Positions 1,079 to 53,408 of a stretch of 53,408 nt of DNA are shown here, in pieces (position 1 is the first letter of the stretch; every line of letters starts with the position of its first letter). The position numbers and the translations under genes are program-made. Under the pieces are notes generated by a model. It saw nothing but the letters and a program-made list of their open reading frames with translations, was not told where the DNA came from and did no database searches. This DNA comes from Herpetosiphonaceae bacterium (GTDB taxonomy: Bacteria > Chloroflexota > Chloroflexia > Chloroflexales > Kallotenuaceae): the NCBI GenBank assembly GCA_036374795.1, contig DASUTC010000157.1, forward strand, positions 1 through 53,408. The letters are read 5' to 3'.

Positions 1079-3331
1079 CTACGCCGAAGCTGCGGTCGAG
1101 CCGTCCTGCCTGGGCAGCGCATCCAGCAGCAACTCGGCAACGTCCTTGCGGCCAAGCGTATCGCCCACGCCGGTATTCTTCGCGGCGTCCTCGAACATGA
1201 CCATGCAGAAGGGACAGCCCATCGCGACCGTCGTCGGCTTGGCCTGCTGAAGCTGCTCAAGGCGGATCACGTTGATGCCCTTGGTGCCCCAGCCTTCCAT
1301 CCAGACGTTACCGCCGCCGCCGCCGCAGCACATCGCCTTCTCGCGATTGCGATCGGGCGCTTCGACCAGCTCCACGCCAGGGATCGCCGCCAGCAGGTCG
1401 CGCGGATCGTCGTAGATGTCGTTGTAGCGCCCGACGTAGCATGGATCGTGGTAGGCCACCCGCTCGTCGACCTGCTCGGTGGGCTTGAGCTTGCCCTGCT
1501 TGACCAGCCGCGCCAGGAATTGGGTGTGATGGATCACCTCGTAGTCTTTGCCAGCGCCGCCGCCGAACTGCGGATACTCGTTCTTGATCGTGTTGAAGCA
1601 GTGCGCGCACGTCGTCACGACCTGCTTAAACTTGTACTGCTGCATCGTCTCGATGTTGGTCTGCGCCTGGGTCTGGTAGAGAAACTCCTCGCCCATGCGC
1701 CGCGCGGGATCGCCGGTACACGTTTCTTCTTCGCCCAGGATCGCGAAGCTGACGCCCGCCCGCTGCATGAGCTGGACCATCGCGCGGGCCGTCTTGCGCG
1801 AGCGCGCATCGTAGCTCGGCGCGCACCCGACCCAGTAGAGCACATCGACTTCCTCGACCTCGGCCAGCACCGGCACGTCCAGGCCCTCGGCCCACGCGGC
1901 GCGCTCACGCTGCGGCAGCTTCCACGGATTGCCGTTGCGCTCGATGCCGGTCAGCACAGTCGACACGCCCTCAGGCACCTCGCCCTCGACCAGCGCCAGC
2001 TTCCGGCGAAGATTCACGATGTCGTCGACATGCTCGATCATCGCCGGACACTCGCTCATACACGCGCGGCAGGTGGTGCAGCTCCACAGCTCGTTCTCCG
2101 AGATCAGCGTGCCGTAGAGCGGCAGCGTCTCACGATCGCCCTTGACGAACTTGACGCCGCCGCCCTTGAGCCGATTCAGGCCATGCAGCTCGCCGTTGCC
2201 GCCCTCGTGAACCGCCTCGGTCGGCGCGCGATCGGCAGCCGCCAGCGCGCTCTCGTCCTGCGTCACATGCACGATCGTGCCGTCTCTCATCAGCACCGGA
2301 GCGCCGCGCATCAGGTCGTCCATCTTGGTGATCAGCCACTTGGGCGACAGATCCGAGCCTGAGGCATAGGCCGGGCAGTTGGCCTGGCAGCGACCGCAGC
2401 GCATACACGCATCCAGGCTCAGCCGCTCCTTCCAGGTCAGATCGGCGATGCGGTTAACGCCCAGATCTTCCTCTTCCTTGTCCTCGATGTCTTCGATCTT
2501 GTCGAGCGCGCCCTTCGGCTCGATGTCGCGGAAGAAGCTGTTGAGCGGCGTGTAGAAGATATGCTTGAACTTGGTGTAGGGGATCGACGCCACGAACGCG
2601 AACGTGGTGATCATATGCGGCACCCAGAGGAGGCGATGGAAGACGAGGCCCGCCTGCCCCTCAAGGCCGATCTGCCGGAAGAAGAGCGCCAGCGGATAGC
2701 CGATCACGTTCCAGCGCGCCCAGCTCTGCTCCATCACGCGCACGCCGCCGATCTCCTGGTTGAGAATACGAATGCCCTCGATCAGGAAGCCGCCGATGCC
2801 GATGAAGAGCATCGCGCCGAGCACCCACGCATCCGTGACGCGGTTATCAAGCCGGTTGGGCTTGCTCACATAGCGCCGGTAGGTCGCCCACAGCAGGCCG
2901 ATCACGAACAGCAGGCCCATCGTGTCGAGAATGAACTCGTAGAACGGGTAGAACGGACCCGCCAGGATACGCCCCGCGTCGGGGCCAAGCGTCGGGATCG
3001 TAAAGTCCTCTTCCATAGCGATAATATCGGTGCCGATGAACAGCGCCAGAAAGCCATAGAAGATCATCGTATGCATGATGCCGGGCGCGCGATCACGCAG
3101 CACGCGCTTCTGCCCAAAAATCTGCTGCAAAAACTCCGACAGACGCGCAGCCAAGCTGGTGGCGCGCTGTGTCGGACGACCAAGCCGCCAGCGCCGGACA
3201 TCGCGCCAGATGCCGTAGCTCAACACTCCAATCGACGCGATGGCGAGCAGGTACAAGAACGTCTGAATAAAAGGAATATGGCCCTGGATGTTCCAATAGA
3301 TCTCGCGAACGGGGACGATCGAGTCGTTCAT
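1079..3331 (-). CDS. Membrane-anchored (Fe-S)-binding heterodisulfide-reductase-like oxidoreductase (FadF/HdrD type)
   Basis: 750 residues. The N-terminal ~255 residues hold about six membrane helices like the NarI/HdrE haem-b subunit. Next comes an acidic linker, then two 4Fe-4S motifs: CMRCGRCQANCP near residues 309-320 and CTTCRACMSECP near 417-428. Two CCG domains follow, with the landmarks TTCAHCFNTIKN, HDPCYVGR, MCCGGGGG and GCPFCMVMF. This architecture is typical of oxidoreductases that pass electrons between a soluble partner, often ETF or an acyl-CoA dehydrogenase, and membrane quinone. The partner is not encoded nearby, so the substrate is unknown. ATG start at 3331; the upstream RBS is weak. 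Domain assignment is firm; the physiological role is inferred. Confidence 0.9.
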   Translation of the reverse strand: MNDSIVPVREIYWNIQGHIPFIQTFLYLLAIASIGVLSYGIWRDVRRWRLGRPTQRATSLAARLSEFLQQIFGQKRVLRDRAPGIMHTMIFYGFLALFIGTDIIAMEEDFTIPTLGPDAGRILAGPFYPFYEFILDTMGLLFVIGLLWATYRRYVSKPNRLDNRVTDAWVLGAMLFIGIGGFLIEGIRILNQEIGGVRVMEQSWARWNVIGYPLALFFRQIGLEGQAGLVFHRLLWVPHMITTFAFVASIPYTKFKHIFYTPLNSFFRDIEPKGALDKIEDIEDKEEEDLGVNRIADLTWKERLSLDACMRCGRCQANCPAYASGSDLSPKWLITKMDDLMRGAPVLMRDGTIVHVTQDESALAAADRAPTEAVHEGGNGELHGLNRLKGGGVKFVKGDRETLPLYGTLISENELWSCTTCRACMSECPAMIEHVDDIVNLRRKLALVEGEVPEGVSTVLTGIERNGNPWKLPQRERAAWAEGLDVPVLAEVEEVDVLYWVGCAPSYDARSRKTARAMVQLMQRAGVSFAILGEEETCTGDPARRMGEEFLYQTQAQTNIETMQQYKFKQVVTTCAHCFNTIKNEYPQFGGGAGKDYEVIHHTQFLARLVKQGKLKPTEQVDERVAYHDPCYVGRYNDIYDDPRDLLAAIPGVELVEAPDRNREKAMCCGGGGGNVWMEGWGTKGINVIRLEQLQQAKPTTVAMGCPFCMVMFEDAAKNTGVGDTLGRKDVAELLLDALPRQDGSTAASA

Positions 3332-3412
3332 AGCGGCTGCAATACTTTCACTACAGTGTGGTCAGCACCTACGAATCAATGAGGGCTGCTGGCTATCCGG
3401 CTCCGCGTATCC

Positions 3413-3460
3413 TACCAGCGATGCTGGTACACGTCAAAAGGGGTAGCCAGCGCCACCCCT
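3413..3460. other. Two small hairpins between the regulator and the Fe-S oxidoreductase
   Basis: A 7-bp perfect inverted repeat (3413-3419 with 3423-3429, 3-nt loop) is followed by AGGGGT/ACCCCT (3439-3444 with 3455-3460). They lie between two leftward genes and may end transcription of the regulator operon, but no T-run follows on the minus strand. Confidence 0.35.
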
Positions 3461-3555
3461 GTATGACTCAATACACGGCTCAACCCATGAGATCGCATCA
3501 GCCAGGGCGTTTTTTTGCCTTTCCCCGGCCTGACGGCTCCCAGGCTGGCGGCGCG

Positions 3556-4236
3556 CTACGGAGCGAGCCGGTAGCCGACGCCCCACTCGGTCATCACGAT
3601 CTTGGGATCGTGCGGATTCTGCTCGAGCTTACGGCGCAGGTGCCAGATATAGACCTTGAGATAGGCCGTATCGTTGACGTACTCCTCGCCCCACACCCGC
3701 TGAAGCAGCGTGTGATGATCGAGCACCTCGCCGGGATGCTGCGCCAGCAGCAGCAGCAGTTGGTACTCGGTGGGCGTAAGATCGACCTGCTCGCCGCGCA
3801 CGCGCACGATCCGCATCTTGGTATCTAGCTCAAGCTGCCCCTCCGCGGCGACGATCGGTTGCTCGGAGCTGGGCACGCGCCGCAGCAGCGCCCGAACCCG
3901 CGCTAACAGCTCGTCGGACTTGAACGGTTTGGTCAGGTAATCATCCGCGCCGCTGTCGAGGCCGCTCACGATGTCGGAGCTTTCCGCGCGGCCCGTCAGC
4001 ATCAGCACGGGCACGTTGGAGAACCGCCGCAGCTCGCGCACGACCTCGAACCCAAGCATATCGGGGAGATTCACATCCAGAATAATCAGATCAGGAGCAC
4101 GTTCAGCGGCCACGGAGATTCCCTCTTTCCCCGTCGGGGCGGCTTGAACGTCGTACTCCTGCGTGTTCAAGACGATCGTCACCGTCTCGCGAAGCTGCGG
4201 ATCATCATCAATGATCAGGATGCGCCGTTCAGCCAT
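3556..4236 (-). CDS. OmpR/PhoB-family two-component response regulator
   Basis: 226 residues. The receiver domain (about 4-118) has acidic residues D10-D12, phospho-acceptor D54 (ILDVNLPD), T81 and K103 (LTKPF). A winged-helix DNA-binding domain follows (about 128-226) with the typical end MTEWGVGYRL. KdpE and PhoB are close in style. The start has a good RBS (AGGAG, 6 nt before ATG). The gene lies 24 bp downstream of the thioredoxin-like protein and appears to be the last gene of the cytochrome c maturation operon. No kinase is adjacent, so its signal is unknown; a redox or respiratory role is only a guess from position. Confidence 0.93.
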   Translation of the reverse strand: MAERRILIIDDDPQLRETVTIVLNTQEYDVQAAPTGKEGISVAAERAPDLIILDVNLPDMLGFEVVRELRRFSNVPVLMLTGRAESSDIVSGLDSGADDYLTKPFKSDELLARVRALLRRVPSSEQPIVAAEGQLELDTKMRIVRVRGEQVDLTPTEYQLLLLLAQHPGEVLDHHTLLQRVWGEEYVNDTAYLKVYIWHLRRKLEQNPHDPKIVMTEWGVGYRLAP

Positions 4237-4260
4237 GCTCCACTCCTATTGCTGCATAGT

Positions 4261-5034
4261 TCAACTGCCAGTAGCCTGCAAACTACGAAACACGCGCTCG
4301 ACATCGGCGGTGTTCAGTTGGCCCACTTTAAGATAACGTACCTTGCCCTGCGGGTCAATAAAGTATGACGTTGGGATCGGATGGATCGCGTAGGCTTGCC
4401 CCACGCCGCCGCTCTCATCCAGGACGATTGGATAGGTGACACCGTAGCGGCTGGCAAACTGCCGCACTTCCTGGACGCCATAGTTCCGACTTCGCTCCGC
4501 GTTGAAGAGATCGACGCCGACGATCACCAGGCCCTGATCCTTGAGCCGCCGGTAGGCCGCCTCCAGCGCCGGTGTTTCTTCTTTGCACGGATCGCACCAC
4601 GTACCCCAAAAGTTGAGCAGAACCACCTTTCCTTTGAAATCGCTGAGACGTACCGGCGTGCCGTCAAGATTTTGAAGCGTAAAATCGGGCGCGTCATAGG
4701 GCTGCACCTCAGTGATCGTCGGAACGTTTGCCTCGTCCCGCCCGGCGATCAGCCAGACGCCGCTCAACACCAACAATCCGACCAGCACGCCGAGCACTCC
4801 AAACAGGATCTCGCGCCCGCTCATGGCGCGCGGCTCCGGCTGAGCCAGGCCATGCTCCCGATCATAGCTCTGGCGCTGCTCAGGATCGGTCAGCACATCC
4901 ACCGCCATCTGAAGCTGCCGCTCCCCTGCCTCCTCCGACGCCGAACGCCGGGCCTGATAGGCCGCTAAAATCTCTTCGGTAGTGGCGGTGGGCGAAACGC
5001 CAAGCAATGTATAGTAGTTCTGTGTCATACTCAT
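4261..5034 (-). CDS. Degenerate J-domain / membrane helix / thioredoxin-fold (CcmG/ResA/TlpA-like) fusion
   Basis: 257 residues. Residues ~6-62 resemble a J-domain (YYTLLGV at the start, DPEQRQSYDREHG at the end) but lack the HPD tripeptide needed to stimulate DnaK. One membrane helix (~75-98) leads to an extracytoplasmic TlpA/ResA-like domain (~110-257) with active site WCDPC (146-150) and the likely cis-Pro P221 (HPIPTSYF). The thioredoxin part would reduce apocytochrome haem-binding cysteines, the job of CcmG or ResA, fitting its place downstream of ccmF. The J-like part would be cytoplasmic by topology, with unknown function. ATG at 5034 has only a weak RBS; ATG at 5028 is an alternative. 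Confidence 0.87.
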   Translation of the reverse strand: MSMTQNYYTLLGVSPTATTEEILAAYQARRSASEEAGERQLQMAVDVLTDPEQRQSYDREHGLAQPEPRAMSGREILFGVLGVLVGLLVLSGVWLIAGRDEANVPTITEVQPYDAPDFTLQNLDGTPVRLSDFKGKVVLLNFWGTWCDPCKEETPALEAAYRRLKDQGLVIVGVDLFNAERSRNYGVQEVRQFASRYGVTYPIVLDESGGVGQAYAIHPIPTSYFIDPQGKVRYLKVGQLNTADVERVFRSLQATGS

Positions 5035-5091
5035 CGTGCTTACTCAAGACACCTCTGTAGCCATACGATGTTGTGTCTCGACCCTGGGACG

Positions 5092-5128
5092 GAGGCTTCG
5101 CGGGGGCTACCCCCACATCCCCAGCCTC
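5092..5128. other. Nested hairpin between the two J-like genes
   Basis: GAGGCT (5092-5097) pairs with AGCCTC (5123-5128) and encloses GGGGG (5102-5106) and CCCCC (5110-5114) with a 3-nt loop. It lies in the 102-bp gap inside the ccm operon and lacks a T-run, so it may be a processing or attenuation element rather than a terminator. Confidence 0.45.
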
Positions 5129-5136
5129 ACGGCGCA

Positions 5137-6141
5137 TTAGGGCTCGTATGTTTGCAGCAATACCTGAGCCTGCTGTGCCTCGCTCGATTGTGGAGCGATT
5201 TCAAGTATTGTACGCCATTGCGCAAGTGCCTCTTGCGTGCGCGGCGGATCGTGTGCGATCAGGATCAAACCGTAGTTGAGCAGCGCGCGCGGCTCGGTCA
5301 CGCCGCTCTGAATACCGCGCTCGACCTCGGCCAGCGCCTCCGCCACCCGCTGCGTGTCGGGCGCGTCGGTGCCGTAGTTGAATAGCGCCACGGCGCGGTC
5401 GGCGCGCACCACCGGATGATCTTCCAGCGACAGCGAGCGATCGTATGCCTGCACCACCTCAAGCCAGCCTTGCAGCCCGCTGCGATACTGCGGCGACTGA
5501 GGCGCGTTTTCGCGGAGCGTCTGCAAATTGTCGAAGAGCGCGTTGCCGAGCGCCCGCCAGGTTGCAGCCGTGTTGCTCGTCTCAGCCGCCGACCGGAACT
5601 GCGCGATCTGCTGCGCTGTGAACGGCAGTTGCCCGCCGCGCAGCAGCGGCGTCGGCGTGGCTAGCGCCTCTGCGCTGCCGCTGGTACGCACGCCGCTCAG
5701 CACAATCAGCAGCAGCACCGCCAGCAGGCCGGTTAGAACGACCACACCTGGCAGCCAGCCGCGCACGCCCTGAGGCTGTGCCCTCCGAACCGGACGCTCG
5801 ACAGCCGGCGCAGCAGACACGGCGCGCTCCTGACCGCGCGCGGGCGGCAAGGGTCGATAGTCGATCGCGTCGGTCGCGTCGGCCACGCCAGCCTGCGAGA
5901 AGCCGCGCTGCCGATCGTAGGCCGCGCGGCGGTCGGGCTGGATCAGCACCTGATACGCCGCCGCGAGCTGCTCGCGCTTCTGCGCGGCCTGCTCTTGAAA
6001 CTCCGGCGCGGCATCCGCCATCCGCTCGGCGCTGTACAGATCGCTGAGCCGCGCATAGGCCGCGTCGATCTCAGGTCCAGACGCTTTCGGCGGCACCTGC
6101 AACAGCGTGTAATAATCTGGCTCGCTTCGACGGTGTGCCAT
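5137..6141 (-). CDS. Degenerate J-domain / membrane helix / TPR-like protein (possible CcmI analogue)
   Basis: 334 residues. The N-terminus (~9-80) resembles a J-domain (DYYTLLQVPP; PDRRAAYDRQRG), but the HPD site is replaced by YSAER. A Pro/Ala-rich linker, one membrane helix (~130-150) and a helical TPR-like domain (~175-334) follow; ALLNYGLILIAHDP is TPR-like. The start abuts the ccmF stop (6142) with no gap. In other bacteria CcmI or NrfG uses a membrane-anchored TPR domain to hold apocytochrome for the haem lyase, so this is a candidate for that role. J-like and TPR-like folds are seen in the sequence; the CcmI-like function is inferred from context. Confidence 0.8.
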   Translation of the reverse strand: MAHRRSEPDYYTLLQVPPKASGPEIDAAYARLSDLYSAERMADAAPEFQEQAAQKREQLAAAYQVLIQPDRRAAYDRQRGFSQAGVADATDAIDYRPLPPARGQERAVSAAPAVERPVRRAQPQGVRGWLPGVVVLTGLLAVLLLIVLSGVRTSGSAEALATPTPLLRGGQLPFTAQQIAQFRSAAETSNTAATWRALGNALFDNLQTLRENAPQSPQYRSGLQGWLEVVQAYDRSLSLEDHPVVRADRAVALFNYGTDAPDTQRVAEALAEVERGIQSGVTEPRALLNYGLILIAHDPPRTQEALAQWRTILEIAPQSSEAQQAQVLLQTYEP

Positions 6142-8493
6142 CTATCGATACATACCACGCCAGCCGAGCACCCGCTGGCTCCAGCCGCCGACAGGCGCGC
6201 GCGCGGGCGCGCGCACCGGCAGCGATTCCCAGCGCCGCCGCACGACCGCCAGCAGGCCGCCGAGGGCCATCAGCAGCGTGCCGATCCAGACCAGCGCAAT
6301 CGCGGGCTTGATGCTGACGGTAAAGACCGCCCGCGCGGGAACCACCGGCAGGTTCAGCCCATCGACGCGCAGCCGCGCGACCTGCTCGCGTGGATTGAAG
6401 TTTTCCAGCGCCAGCTTCTTACCGCTCGGCAGCGCGACCGCCAGCTCTCGCAAGGCTTTATTCGGCTCCAGCCGCATCTGCGGCGTGAGCACCTGCACCG
6501 TGTTCTCGTGCGTGATCGTCACCGTCGCGCCAACCAGCGCGCTGTTGTCGGTCGCGAGATGATCCTGCACGTCGAACTTATCGAAGCGCAGCGCGTACGG
6601 CCCGATCTGCGCCTGCTGGCCCGGAGCCAGATCGACCGTGCTCGGATCGTCGGCGGGCAGGTACTCTTCGGGCGAGATGTACAGATCTTGCCACAGGTAG
6701 CGCTTGATCGCGGGCGTGCGCACCCACGCGCCCATGCGGCTGTTGAAATATACATCGGGCGCGGCGATAAACGGCGTATCGCTCTCCTTATCGACTTCCA
6801 GCCGCAGCACATGCTTGCCGTTCTCGCGCTCGTCGTAGCCCCAGAAGGTGAAGCTATGCCCGAAGATGCTCTGCGTCTCGGCCTGGGGAATCACCAGCTT
6901 CTCTTCCTCGGACGAGTAGGCATACGAGCCGACCACGCCGACGAGCAGCAGGGCCATGCCGACATGCGCCACGTAGCCGCCGATCCGCAGCCAGCCCGAC
7001 CGCAGCGTGCGCGCGATCATCAGCAGATTGGTGCCGAGCGCAAACGTCGCAATCGCCACGTACGCGATCGACATGCCATCGCGCACGCCCAGCACGATCG
7101 CCACGCTGGTCAGCAGCACCGCCGCCACGAAGGGCCAGCGCAGCGATAGCAGCAGCTTGCGTGCGTTAGTGTCGCGCCAGCCCAAGAGCGGCCCGACCGA
7201 CATCAGCACCGCCAGGATCAGGCCGAGCGGCGGTGTGGTCTTTTTGAAGAAGTCGGGGAGCAGCGAGAAGCGACCATCGCTGAAGGGCTGCCCGCCGAAG
7301 CGCGTGCCGTTGTCCAGATCGAAGGCGCGGCTAAAGATGCGCTCCAGGTTGTAGCTCAGCCCCTCGATCGAGGTGATCCAGGGCATCGACGTGCCGAAGG
7401 CGATCACCACGCCGATCATCACGAACGTCAGCATCAGCAGCACAAAGGCCGTATCGCGCGAGAGCACCGCCTCCGACAGCGGCTTGCGCGGCACGTCGCG
7501 CCAGCGCAGGCTCAGAAGGCCGAAGCCCAGGATCAGCAGTGCGACCAGCGCGCCGATCATGATGTACTTCAAGCCCTCTTCGACGAACGAGTGAACCGAG
7601 AAGTTCGACAGCACGCCGGAGCGCGTCAGGAACGAGGCATAGAAGACGAAGCCGTAGGTCAGCACCGCCAGAAAGAAGTTCGCGCGGCGCAGACCGCCGT
7701 GGGTGCGCTGTGCCAGCAGGCCATGCAGCAGGGCACCGCCCGTCAGCCACGGCACCAGCGACGAGTTCTCCACCGGGTCCCAGCCCCAGTAGCCGCCCCA
7801 GCCCAGCGACTCATACGCCCAGTAGCCGCCCATCGTCAGCGCCAGCCCCAGGATCGTCCAGCCCGCGACGGTCCACGGCAGCGCCATACGCGCCCAGGTG
7901 TCGTAGTCGCGCCGCCACAGGCCCGCCAGCGCCATGCAGAAGGGCACGCCCAGCAGCCCATAGGCCGTAAACAGCGTCGGCGGGTGGATTACCATCCAGA
8001 CGTTGTGAAGCTGCGGATTCAGGCCGCGTCCCTCGGTGATCGGGCCGCTCAGCCCTTCGATCACCGTGGGCAAGAACGGGTTACGCACCAGCATAAAGAC
8101 GAGCAGGATCGTCTGAAGCAGCATCAGCGGCGACAGAATGTACGGCTCGAATTGGCGCGTGCGGCGCATCAGGAACGGCGCGCAGATCAGCCCGACCAGC
8201 GCCCAGACAACGAGGCTGCCGGGCTGCCCGGCCCAGATCGCCGCGATCCGGTAGCGCATTTCGAGATCGGTCGAGCTATAGTCGTAGACATAGCGGATGT
8301 CGTAGCGCTGCAACACAAACAGCGCCAGCAGCAGCGCCGCCGCGCTCAGCGCCAGCGCCAGCGAGCTCCACGCCCCGGCACGACCCCAGCGGATCAGCCG
8401 TGGCCGCCCGCCGACGACCAGCGCATAGCAGATCGACGAGCAGAGCGCGGCCAGGATCGCGCCATAGATTAGCGTTGAACCAATGATATACAT
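6142..8493 (-). CDS. ccmF: Cytochrome c haem lyase subunit CcmF
   Basis: 783 residues, slightly above the usual ~650. It is polytopic and carries the tryptophan-rich WWD haem-handling signature (GGYWAYESLGWGGYWGWDPV) in the first half, preceded by the conserved MVIHPPTLFTAYG block. The long extracytoplasmic segment near residues 520-740 and a last helix before the C-terminus match CcmF family architecture. CcmF takes haem from CcmE and attaches it to the CxxCH motif of apocytochrome c outside the membrane. It sits between ccmE and the J-like/TPR gene in one leftward operon. The RBS before ATG 8493 is weak. Confidence 0.96.
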   Translation of the reverse strand: MYIIGSTLIYGAILAALCSSICYALVVGGRPRLIRWGRAGAWSSLALALSAAALLLALFVLQRYDIRYVYDYSSTDLEMRYRIAAIWAGQPGSLVVWALVGLICAPFLMRRTRQFEPYILSPLMLLQTILLVFMLVRNPFLPTVIEGLSGPITEGRGLNPQLHNVWMVIHPPTLFTAYGLLGVPFCMALAGLWRRDYDTWARMALPWTVAGWTILGLALTMGGYWAYESLGWGGYWGWDPVENSSLVPWLTGGALLHGLLAQRTHGGLRRANFFLAVLTYGFVFYASFLTRSGVLSNFSVHSFVEEGLKYIMIGALVALLILGFGLLSLRWRDVPRKPLSEAVLSRDTAFVLLMLTFVMIGVVIAFGTSMPWITSIEGLSYNLERIFSRAFDLDNGTRFGGQPFSDGRFSLLPDFFKKTTPPLGLILAVLMSVGPLLGWRDTNARKLLLSLRWPFVAAVLLTSVAIVLGVRDGMSIAYVAIATFALGTNLLMIARTLRSGWLRIGGYVAHVGMALLLVGVVGSYAYSSEEEKLVIPQAETQSIFGHSFTFWGYDERENGKHVLRLEVDKESDTPFIAAPDVYFNSRMGAWVRTPAIKRYLWQDLYISPEEYLPADDPSTVDLAPGQQAQIGPYALRFDKFDVQDHLATDNSALVGATVTITHENTVQVLTPQMRLEPNKALRELAVALPSGKKLALENFNPREQVARLRVDGLNLPVVPARAVFTVSIKPAIALVWIGTLLMALGGLLAVVRRRWESLPVRAPARAPVGGWSQRVLGWRGMYR

Positions 8494-49586: not shown

Positions 49587-49985
49587 ATGGAACTGACCCT
49601 GACGACACCCGCGCTCCTCTTCCCGGCGATCTCGCTGCTGCTGCTGGCCTACACCAACCGCTTCCTCACGCTCGCCGCGCTGATGCGCGAGCTATATACC
49701 CGCTACAAAGCTCAGCCAGACCCGAAAATCAAGCGGCAGCTTGCCAACTTGCGCTATCGCATCGTGATTATCCGCGACATGCAGATCTTTGGCGTCTCCA
49801 GCTTCTTCTTCTGCGTGCTCTGCATGTTCGTCCTGTTCGCCGGACAGCCGACCCTTGGCAAGTGGATCTTTGGCGGCAGCCTGATCCTGCTGCTGATCTC
49901 GCTGGGCCTTTCCCTGCGTGAGATCCAGGTATCGATCGATGCGCTCACGCTCCAGGTGGCGGATCTGGATGATGATGAGGCGTAG
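49587..49985 (+). CDS. DUF2721 family membrane protein
   Basis: About 132 residues from ATG 49587; ATG 49557 is an alternative, and GAGGAGG (49566-49572) suits the later start. It begins with a hydrophobic helix (LTTPALLFPAISLLLLAYT), then a basic segment (ELYTRYKAQPDPKIKRQL) and two more helices (~70-115), as in DUF2721. Function unknown. A TATAAT box lies about 43 nt upstream. Confidence 0.88.
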   Translation: MELTLTTPALLFPAISLLLLAYTNRFLTLAALMRELYTRYKAQPDPKIKRQLANLRYRIVIIRDMQIFGVSSFFFCVLCMFVLFAGQPTLGKWIFGGSLILLLISLGLSLREIQVSIDALTLQVADLDDDEA

Positions 49986-50840: not shown

Positions 50841-50870
50841 TTGACGTAGATGCTCACAATCATGTATACT
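50841..50870 (+). promoter_or_regulatory. Sigma-70-type promoter of the mau-like unit
   Basis: TTGACG (50841-50846), 18-bp spacer, TATACT (50865-50870), in a stretch clearly richer in A+T than its surroundings. It would give a leader of about 350 nt before the TTG start at 51232. Confidence 0.75.
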
Positions 50871-50964
50871 GTTTACCTGATTTATACTATTCCTGATTGT
50901 GCGTATATCTCCTTGACCCATGCTCTACCACATCCCCCCTGCTGGTAGTGGCACACAACAGCCC

Positions 50965-51152
50965 GCTGGCAAGCTAGCGTAATCGTTATGCGGTTGCTCT
51001 GCCTAACCTATTGTTCAGCCTGCGGCAGCAAGGCACATCTTCCGTAAAGACGACGTACCGCACTGCCGCAGGCTACGTGTACCCACCGCTTCAGTCCTGG
51101 TATTGATACGATGACCGTGCTTCAATAGCACCAGTACGGCAGGCTTGCCAGC
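50965..51152 (+). ncRNA. Candidate structured 5' leader RNA of the mau-like unit
   Basis: Four helices can be drawn in order. P1: GCTGGCAAGC (50965-50974) with GCTTGCCAGC (51143-51152). P2: GCGTAA/TTATGC (50977-50982 with 50986-50991, one G-U). P3: AGCCTGCGGCAG/CTGCCGCAGGCT (51017-51028 with 51063-51074, perfect 12 bp). P4: GTGCT/AGCAC (51117-51121 with 51127-51131). P1 closes a multi-branch loop containing the others. This organisation is riboswitch-like, but it matches no class I recognise. Confidence 0.5.
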
Positions 51153-51231
51153 CAAATCTTGAGTCTCCATCGCAGTATGTCGTGATGCGCTCTCCTCTAC
51201 AAGGTCTGTCCGCCACCCAAGGAGGCTATGC

Positions 51232-51756
51232 TTGTTTGGACTTGTCCTCACGTTTCCACTGTTCGCTTCTGCCGCAAGCTATGCATGGTCGCGCTACTTC
51301 GGCGCCGAGGAGCGATCACCGATCGGTCCTCAGGCTCACGTGCTGCTGATCGTCGCCCAGCTCACGATCGCGACCTGGGTGGCCTCGACATGGTATCCGC
51401 TTCCGGCGCGGATCGCGCTCGCGCTGATGTACCTGGCGCTTGGCAGCGGCGCGGCATATTTCAAACTCACCAAAGGCGATGTGCCATGCGGTTGCATGGG
51501 ATCGCAGAGCGAGCACCCGTTGACCTGGCGGCTGGTAGCCGCCGACCTGCTGCTGGCCTGTGCGGCGCTGCTCAGCACGCGCGAGCAGGTGGTCTTTGCG
51601 CCGGGATCGGGCCTGTTTCTCGGCTTCGTGATGTGTTTGCTTGGCCTGCTCGTAACAACCGGCCTGCCGGATGCATTGTATGCCCTGCGGGGTGGGCAGC
51701 GTGCCGTCGAGCGGTATCGCTCGTGGATCAATGGGTATAAGGAGTTATTACCGTGA
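51232..51756 (+). CDS. MauE-like/DoxX-related membrane protein
   Basis: 174 residues from a TTG start at 51232, supported by AAGGAGG 6 nt upstream; the ATG at 51228 is in another frame. Four or five membrane helices. The motif DVPCGCMG followed by H95 (P85-C88) matches the conserved CxC loop of MauE. In methylamine-utilisation clusters MauE and MauD are needed to form the many disulfides of the small subunit MauA. It heads the unit and overlaps mauD-like by 4 bp (GTGA). Confidence 0.87.
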   Translation: MFGLVLTFPLFASAASYAWSRYFGAEERSPIGPQAHVLLIVAQLTIATWVASTWYPLPARIALALMYLALGSGAAYFKLTKGDVPCGCMGSQSEHPLTWRLVAADLLLACAALLSTREQVVFAPGSGLFLGFVMCLLGLLVTTGLPDALYALRGGQRAVERYRSWINGYKELLP

Positions 51757-52376
51757 GCACCTTCTTCTGGGCCTCATATGTGGCGCTATGGCTGCTGATC
51801 GTACCGCTGGTCATCTTGAATCTGCTGCTGTTTCGACAGGTGGGCATTATGGTCATGGGTACCGCGCGCGGCGTTAACCAGAGCGGCATCCCCGCCGGTC
51901 GGCGGCTGCCCGCTGTGAATAGCGTCACGATCCACGGCAAGCCCTGGTCGTCGGAGAGCGTTAAGGGACGGCCACATGTGTTGCTCTTTGGCTCGACAAC
52001 CTGCAAGGAATGTAGCGCGATCATGCCTGATCTGAGCCGGGTGCAAACTATGTTTGGCGTCCAGCCGATCCTGTTGATGTTCTCCGACATTGAACAGTCG
52101 GCAAAATACGCAGAGCGGCACAACCTGAGCTACGACGTGATTATCGCCTCGCAAGAGCTAGGGGCAAAATTCGACGTCGAAGTTTCTCCGTTCGCGTATG
52201 GGGTCGATAGTCAAGGAATTATTCGCGCCAAGGGGCTGGTTAACTCTCGCCGCCAGCTAGAAGCGATTGCACAGGCCGCTCTGGGCGACGAATATCCCCA
52301 AAATCGTCCGATCATTCAGCTTGAGGAGGCAGCTAGCGCAGAGAGCACCACCGATACAGCCGTGAACTACGGATAG
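51753..52376 (+). CDS. MauD-like membrane-anchored thioredoxin-fold protein
   Basis: 207 residues from GTG 51753, overlapping the mauE-like stop. One N-terminal membrane helix (~7-28) is followed by a thioredoxin domain facing outside, with active site GSTTCKECSAIMPDL (C84, C87) and a probable cis-Pro in VEVSPFAYGVD. MauD supports disulfide formation or isomerisation in MauA. The motif CKEC instead of CPxC suggests an altered redox potential. Gene order MauE-MauD-MauA matches true mau clusters. Confidence 0.87.
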   Translation: MSTFFWASYVALWLLIVPLVILNLLLFRQVGIMVMGTARGVNQSGIPAGRRLPAVNSVTIHGKPWSSESVKGRPHVLLFGSTTCKECSAIMPDLSRVQTMFGVQPILLMFSDIEQSAKYAERHNLSYDVIIASQELGAKFDVEVSPFAYGVDSQGIIRAKGLVNSRRQLEAIAQAALGDEYPQNRPIIQLEEAASAESTTDTAVNYG

Positions 52377-52400
52377 CTCTCGCGATCGAAGCGCAATGGA

Positions 52401-52447
52401 CACGGCGGTCTTGGCGGGCCTGCCGTGATCGGCTATCTGTAGATAGC
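52401..52447 (+). other. Two tandem hairpins between mauD-like and mauA-like genes
   Basis: CACGGC (52401-52406) with GCCGTG (52422-52427) and GCTATC (52432-52437) with GATAGC (52442-52447, 4-nt loop TGTA). They lie in the 114-nt gap and could stabilise the downstream mRNA. Confidence 0.5.
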
Positions 52448-52490
52448 GGAGACGCCCGTGCCGACTGGATAAGTTTTATGGAGACATACG

Positions 52491-52925
52491 ATGGACAACA
52501 AAGACTTAGAGATCCAGGCAAAAGTAGGCGCATTTGCACGGAAGATGGGCCGCCGGAATTTCCTGTCACGGGGAGCAGCAGCCGTAGCAGGCATGATCGC
52601 GGCGGCGGTGATTGGTAAAATGGAGGGCACCGAGACGGCCTTTGCCGACAGCGCGCCCTGCTATCCACCCTACGGCGTGTACTGCTCAGGCTGTGGAGCC
52701 GACAGCACCTGCCCATCGTACTACTCGACCTGCACGACATCAAACGACGTGTGCAGCGATGGCACGCGCCTGACCAGCAGCGGGCAGTGCATCTACTCGA
52801 TCGGCTGGTGGTACACGAGCAGCCCCATTGGACAGCGCCACAAGTGCCGCGACTGTATCCGCTCCGGTCCTATCCTGTGCAAGGGTGGTAACTACTGCGG
52901 CTGCCGGTCAACGCTCCACTACTAG
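52491..52925 (+). CDS. Tat-exported 12-cysteine protein, MauA-like (methylamine dehydrogenase light-chain-like)
   Basis: 144 residues. RBS GGAG is 7 nt before ATG. A Tat signal (GRRNFLSRGAAAVAG, cleavage probably after AFA at 52) leads to a ~92-residue mature protein with 12 cysteines (57, 65, 68, 74, 81, 88, 100, 119, 122, 130, 136, 138), enough for six disulfides as in MauA. CSDGTRL and HKCRDC resemble the MauA blocks CPPGTKL and YRDCC. But the two tryptophans that form TTQ, about 50 residues apart, are absent; the only Trp residues are adjacent (106-107), and the C-terminal part of MauA is missing. It is therefore likely to lack TTQ and may have a different role. Confidence 0.8.
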   Translation: MDNKDLEIQAKVGAFARKMGRRNFLSRGAAAVAGMIAAAVIGKMEGTETAFADSAPCYPPYGVYCSGCGADSTCPSYYSTCTTSNDVCSDGTRLTSSGQCIYSIGWWYTSSPIGQRHKCRDCIRSGPILCKGGNYCGCRSTLHY

Positions 52926-52942
52926 CCCGGACGACAGACGAC

Positions 52943-52991
52943 TCTGGGTAGCTCAGGAAAGGCGAGCACGCTTCGTTTCGGGCTACCCAGA
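52943..52991 (+). other. Hairpin between the mauA-like gene and the last gene
   Basis: TCTGGGTAGC (52943-52952) pairs perfectly with GCTACCCAGA (52982-52991), 29-nt loop. It lies 18 nt after the stop and could end most transcripts or stabilise the mauA-like mRNA. Confidence 0.6.
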
Positions 52992-53014
52992 TTCATTGCT
53001 GAGAGGATCATTCA

Positions 53015-53408
53015 ATGCTTGAAATGCTCATACTCGTAGCGGTCGGCGCGGCACTGGCGGGCACCGATAGCACTTGAGGGCTGAATGTTATAGGGAGCCT
53101 GGATGGTTCCAAGATTAATCGAAAAGCATATGCGCTGATCTATGTGCTGGCGTCGGTGGTCGGCGGCCTCATCACGGGTGTCATCGTTTCCTCGGCGGGG
53201 CAGATCTTCCGAGCGTTTATCGGCCATGATGTCCGGCTCATGCTCTTTGCAGCCGTGCTGCTCCTGGCATTGATGCTCGAAATCCTGGGCAAGGCGCATC
53301 TGTGGACCGTTGGCAGCTTCGTCGTGCCTGCCGCGTGGGTTGCCAAAGGCGATCAGCGGGCGGCTACGCTCTGGGGTCTGATCCTTGGCCTGGGATTTCT
53401 GACCTGGA
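53015..53408 (+). pseudogene. Polytopic membrane protein with in-frame TGA, cut by window end
   Basis: ATG 53015 has AGAGGAT upstream and opens with a hydrophobic helix (MLEMLILVAVGAALAGTDST). A TGA at 53075-53077 follows, and the same frame then runs open to the window end: GLNVIGSLDGSKINRKAY, then helices LIYVLASVVGGLITGVIV and LMLFAAVLLLALMLEI and the basic loop AKGDQRAATLW. No good start codon or RBS lies after the TGA. I do not recognise the family; MauF or CcdA-like is possible only by context. It may be a pseudogene, a readthrough gene or an assembly error. Confidence 0.6.

Follow-up and report, generated by a model that had tools for sequence, protein, structure and literature searches.

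The mau-like locus at the end of the stretch analysed here (hereafter the window, 53,408 nucleotides of contig DASUTC010000157.1 from a Herpetosiphonaceae bacterium) very probably encodes a selenoprotein form of MauF, in which selenocysteine (Sec) would take the place of a conserved cysteine. From sequence comparison, we strongly infer that the fourth gene of the locus is a homologue of mauF with a TGA standing at the conserved MauF cysteine, and that this TGA would be read as Sec; the latter reading is drawn from the MauF homology, the position of the TGA on a conserved cysteine and the accompanying Sec machinery. An earlier, sequence-only reading had described the locus as a "reduced" unit of three genes, but it is less reduced than this, as the MauF homologue follows directly and had been hidden by its in-frame TGA.

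All features of the locus lie on the forward strand. The mauE homologue (51232..51756) encodes a 174-residue membrane protein with a conserved CxC (PCGCMG) and begins at a TTG codon, 6 nt 3' of a Shine-Dalgarno-like AGGAGG read from the sequence (51220..51225); its product passes the Pfam cut-off for PF07291 (E 1.1e-8, 35.9 bits; cut-off 27). Its stop overlaps, as GTGA, the start of the next gene (51753..52376), which encodes a 207-residue, membrane-anchored thioredoxin-like protein with a CKEC motif, matching TIGR02661 and PF00578. Family match, gene order, overlap and the CxC and CxxC motifs are shared with known MauE and MauD; however, unlike known MauD, the window protein scores under the TIGR02661 equivalog cut-off (E 2.7e-20, 72.6 bits; cut-off 188.6), and it is therefore termed MauD-like rather than an equivalog. 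The mauA slot is occupied by a gene (52491..52925) for a 144-residue protein, with MauA homology not established, which carries an RRNF Tat motif, has all 12 of its cysteines inside a 92-residue mature part, contains only two tryptophans, the adjacent Trp106 and Trp107, and has no family match in Pfam or NCBIfam. The gene order with its overlap, the Tat signal with 12 mature cysteines and the lack of a TTQ tryptophan pair had all been put forward by the sequence-only reading and are borne out, and profile searches with the proteins of 51232-52925 confirmed the MauE family, left the second protein as MauD-like and gave the third no family. The promoter that it had assigned to the unit is less secure: a promoter-like TTGACG-18-TATACT is present (50841..50870), but the number of such sites, two, is no higher than chance would give (1.1, sd 1.1), so that it is possible only and remains unproven. 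Neither MauB nor MauG was seen around the unit as far as the contig end at 53408. Upstream, at 49593-49982, lies a gene for an apparently unrelated DUF2721 membrane protein (PF11026, E 8.9e-39).

The fourth gene (53015..53408) is represented by its 5' part, 131 codons directly followed by the contig end, which cuts it. A Shine-Dalgarno-like GAGAGGA lies upstream of the ATG at 53015, from which the frame reads MLEMLILVAVGAALAGTDST-TGA-GLNVIGSLDG..., the TGA (53075..53077) being its sole interruption up to the contig end. In Nonomuraea gerenzanensis, the homologue of the Cys-rich protein, 52% identical to that of the window in alignment, is followed by MTHFTIVLAGVAGVLSFATA-TGA-GMNAAGTLYAS..., with the TGA at codon 21, as in the window. 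Neither of these two readthrough proteins matches any family in Pfam or NCBIfam, and no curated MauF model was found in NCBIfam; the relationship to MauF rests on profile comparison, as a tblastn search of plasmids with one Cys homologue failed to recover genuine MauF. By hhalign, 11 TGA proteins, that of the window included, aligned with two MauF proteins over 178 columns (probability 98.6, E 8e-16), and the TGA column was placed at the Cys of WSPCG, the only cysteine that MauF proteins conserve. As the window has a TGA codon there, the cysteine has a counterpart only if the TGA is read as Sec, its analogue, and the gene is thus regarded as a putative MauF variant. Its location together with mauE and mauD is shared by most relatives. 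With MauF of Paracoccus denitrificans (PDEN_RS23540, WP_011750949.1), a homologous membrane protein with the same WSP-C-G residue column, the window group has in common the conserved QVP and LG..LT motifs and an association with genes for MauE, MauD and a Tat-exported Cys-rich protein. The differences are that the window and its relatives bear TGA (putative Sec) at the codon that is Cys in P. denitrificans, that mauF stands after the mauA slot in the window but before mauB in P. denitrificans, and that in most of the window group, unlike in the mau cluster, the operon shows neither MauB nor amicyanin nor MauG.

Relatives were sought with a profile built from these proteins, in a search that read through stop codons; it returned members from Chloroflexota and Actinomycetota, and many of them had one TGA and no more. 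After inspection, a TGA at the homologous codon was retained in 15 genes of 12 genomes: one in the window, three in N. gerenzanensis, two in Nonomuraea SBT364, and one each in G163, G277, G282, G536, G232, G080, G590, G867 and the chloroflexotan Thermomicrobium roseum; G605 (L035), in which the match starts at the homologous position and the N terminus is not resolvable, was excluded from the counts. Where the TGA genes are complete, open frames of 184-203 codons extend 3' of the TGA. Cys occupies the TGA column in seven homologues. They include two proteins annotated as MauF, from P. denitrificans and Indioceanicola profundi, and one in G213, where the Cys form is fused with MauE in one open reading frame, followed by MauD and then by the Cys-rich protein. 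The three paralogous TGA-MauF genes of N. gerenzanensis are grouped together, and Nonomuraea holds extra paralogous mau-like cassettes (TGA codons, all on the reverse strand, at 2639-2641 and 11187-11189 of L005 and at 13266-13268 of L011), all within about 9 kb, in which other Cys/Trp-rich Tat-type proteins accompany their own TGA-interrupted MauF. Further variation among the clusters includes a Cys-rich Tat protein that continues into a large C-terminal region similar to cell-wall-binding repeats, with TGA-MauF adjoining (L040:6855-8243), a MauE domain placed C-terminal to a propeller-like domain in one polypeptide (L047:1511-3559, L066:12347-14137), and two MauD-like genes per cluster in L048 and L077, one L077 copy being without CxxC. 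A MauF relative on the reverse strand of L042 (G178 C75) carries a frameshift and has TAA in place of the putative Sec codon, and is likely a decayed gene.

Across nine relatives of the Cys-rich protein, Trp107 and several cysteines are invariant; a scan of genome contigs for the protein returned Nonomuraea SBT364 only, and a scan of viral contigs gave no match. It could be supposed that the locus represents a methylamine dehydrogenase system whose other genes, for MauB, MauG or further proteins, lie past the end of the contig, and that the Cys-rich protein is a TTQ light chain that has diverged; this proposal concerns function, is compatible with a selenocysteine MauF, and is judged unlikely. 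The gene order fits, gene slot, Tat signal and 12 cysteines are common to MauA and the window protein, and the invariant Trp of the latter, with the C-x-D-C that follows it, resembles the W...YRDCC segment of MauA, as do the position and order of its motifs (Trp, C-x-D-C, CxC) those of MauA. Real MauA-type proteins also occur beside TGA-MauF: in G282, G232 and T. roseum it adjoins proteins with both TTQ-type tryptophans (PDB match E 8e-12) together with propeller proteins, so that the Sec form is not tied to TTQ-less proteins. However, the window protein is without the second TTQ tryptophan and, with its shorter C terminus, without the C-terminal part of MauA; it has no significant profile match to MauA, the comparison of mature parts scoring 16.5 against a null maximum of 17.8 from column shuffles; it does not match PF02975 or TIGR02659; PF02975 is missing from the whole of its own genome by profile search; and in the close relatives from Nonomuraea the operon shows no evident MauB. 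A full-length profile match with MauA was rejected, being confined to the Tat region, and a PDB profile search with the Cys-rich protein returned Tat-type matches only. AlphaFold2 models from two-row alignments reached pLDDT values of 37 and 47, and the Foldseek result was dismissed as meaningless. On the T. roseum megaplasmid (L066, 2097-12315), at least four intact MauA-type, light-chain-like proteins and one that is possibly frameshifted are interleaved with propeller-like hypothetical proteins, and a single one of them is annotated as a light chain.

Less likely again is a signal or toxin role for a disulfide-rich secreted protein served by the trio, an alternative that likewise concerns function only and had been raised by the sequence-only reading. 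The protein is indeed small, Cys-rich, exported and variable among species, but it matches no toxin or signal family, the suggestion is unsupported, and the conserved Trp and the tie to MauA-type relatives suggest a redox or cofactor protein instead. The core of the same reading, in which the trio is dedicated to the disulfides of a small exported protein other than a normal TTQ subunit, is still the best account of these three genes, but the unit does not stand apart from mau systems: some relatives of the unit have Cys-rich proteins without the second TTQ Trp and others have two-Trp MauA-type proteins, and as TGA-MauF stands alongside both, the unit forms part of a continuum with mau systems.

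For the TGA itself, the reading as Sec is favoured by several lines of evidence. The genome to which the window belongs has SelB and tRNA-Sec above cut-off, as well as a formate-dehydrogenase-like gene with one TGA. In Nonomuraea SBT364 (L011, the one locus in which SelA and SelD were checked), selA, selD, tRNA-Sec and selB occupy 2665-7127, immediately upstream of the mau-like genes, which begin at about 8862; selB lies about 7 kb upstream of the cluster in N. gerenzanensis (tblastn), and in G833, which is nearly identical, tRNA-Sec is about 11 kb upstream. The SelB model scored above cut-off in all nine TGA genomes tested (T. roseum and G867 were outside the test), whereas three of the five Cys-type genomes tested had no SelB above cut-off. 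However, SelB is found in 159 of 201 sampled Chloroflexota (79%), and against this background its co-occurrence was rejected as proof of Sec, being consistent with Sec in this phylum but not strong evidence. TGA is also the ordinary stop of mauE in the same operon, and terminates several of the TGA-bearing mauF genes, so recoding is not general. Downstream of the TGA, a hairpin (GGAGCC-TGGAT-GGTTCC, 53094..53110), beginning 19 nt after its T, is a weakly supported candidate bacterial SECIS. Against codon-resampled sequence, the hairpin was stronger in the window taken alone (p 0.025), and downstream hairpins were stronger over the TGA genes (Fisher P 8e-4), with a P of 0.11 for the Cys genes, the contrast between the two classes being not significant (P 0.14); dinucleotide shuffles gave no SECIS signal. 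Over the 21 codons after the TGA in two Nonomuraea, synonymous changes numbered 0 of 19, versus 39 of 144 (P 0.004).

Were the TGA a true stop, the first codons would form a short conserved leader peptide (about 20 residues), and translation would restart after it to give a shorter membrane protein. In support of this, the RefSeq protein of T. roseum starts at an ATG four codons 3' of the TGA, and an ATG occurs 2-6 codons after it in some relatives; however, the window has no start codon for 23 codons after the TGA, the parts flanking it form one unbroken protein in the Cys homologues, Shine-Dalgarno-like sequences lie 5' of the upstream ATG in the window and in Nonomuraea, and pN/pS values of 0.33-0.38 on both sides of the TGA indicate purifying selection at the protein level on either flank, all of which makes this alternative very improbable. 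Gene decay or sequencing error, to which the TAA and frameshift of G178 and the many draft assemblies might point, has least of all to recommend it, given that 12 genomes share the same codon in the same column, that the T. roseum copy lies on a finished megaplasmid, and that pN/pS is about 0.33 and 184-203 open codons follow in complete genes.

With a Sec-containing MauF thus favoured, a model of how the locus may operate can be proposed, the relay and its substrate being drawn from family knowledge of MauE, MauD and MauF. MauD and MauE help the MauA subunit, a protein with six disulfides, to mature, and MauF is needed for the formation of methylamine dehydrogenase, although no function is known to have been assigned to it. 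The model proposes that the locus is a mauE-mauD-(mauA slot)-mauF operon, that the Cys-rich protein would be exported via Tat, and that MauD (by its CxxC), MauE (by its CxC) and MauF (by one Cys or Sec) would form a redox relay across or at the membrane, which may make or rearrange the many disulfides of the Cys-rich protein, with Sec in place of Cys in MauF possibly allowing faster exchange. The CxC is kept in the MauE homologues of these clusters (PCGCMG, DCGCWG, DCGCLG, RCGCFG, PCSCFG, PCPCFG, DCSCFG, ECNCFG), and contact between MauF and MauE is supported by their fusion in G213. A thiol/selenol relay with MauD, MauE and MauF would be the simplest reading, and it is somewhat likely that this relay acts on the Cys-rich protein. 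More tentatively, and with the odds against it, a selenium-dependent membrane relay of MauE, MauD and Sec-containing MauF might mature a family of Cys-rich Tat proteins in which a single Trp is invariant and which bear an undescribed Trp-derived cofactor (e.g., Trp-Cys) rather than TTQ.

As in known prokaryotic selenoproteins, Sec would replace a redox Cys in the window MauF, with Cys homologues in other species. No Mau protein is among the entries of a 2026 inventory of 119 prokaryotic selenoprotein families and subfamilies (PMC13188914, Table 1), and a full-text literature search, not exhaustive, for MauF or methylamine dehydrogenase together with selenium returned no relevant paper; TGA-MauF would thus be a new selenoprotein family and, at the same time, a variant of known MauF. 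Genes of this kind are mis-annotated at present, the T. roseum copy in RefSeq beginning 3' of the TGA. If the Sec reading is correct, the list of selenoproteins would gain a membrane family, and the occurrence of Sec in two phyla at the sole conserved cysteine of MauF would single this residue out as redox-active; MauF, so far an accessory protein without explanation, could then be tested as a thiol/selenol enzyme.
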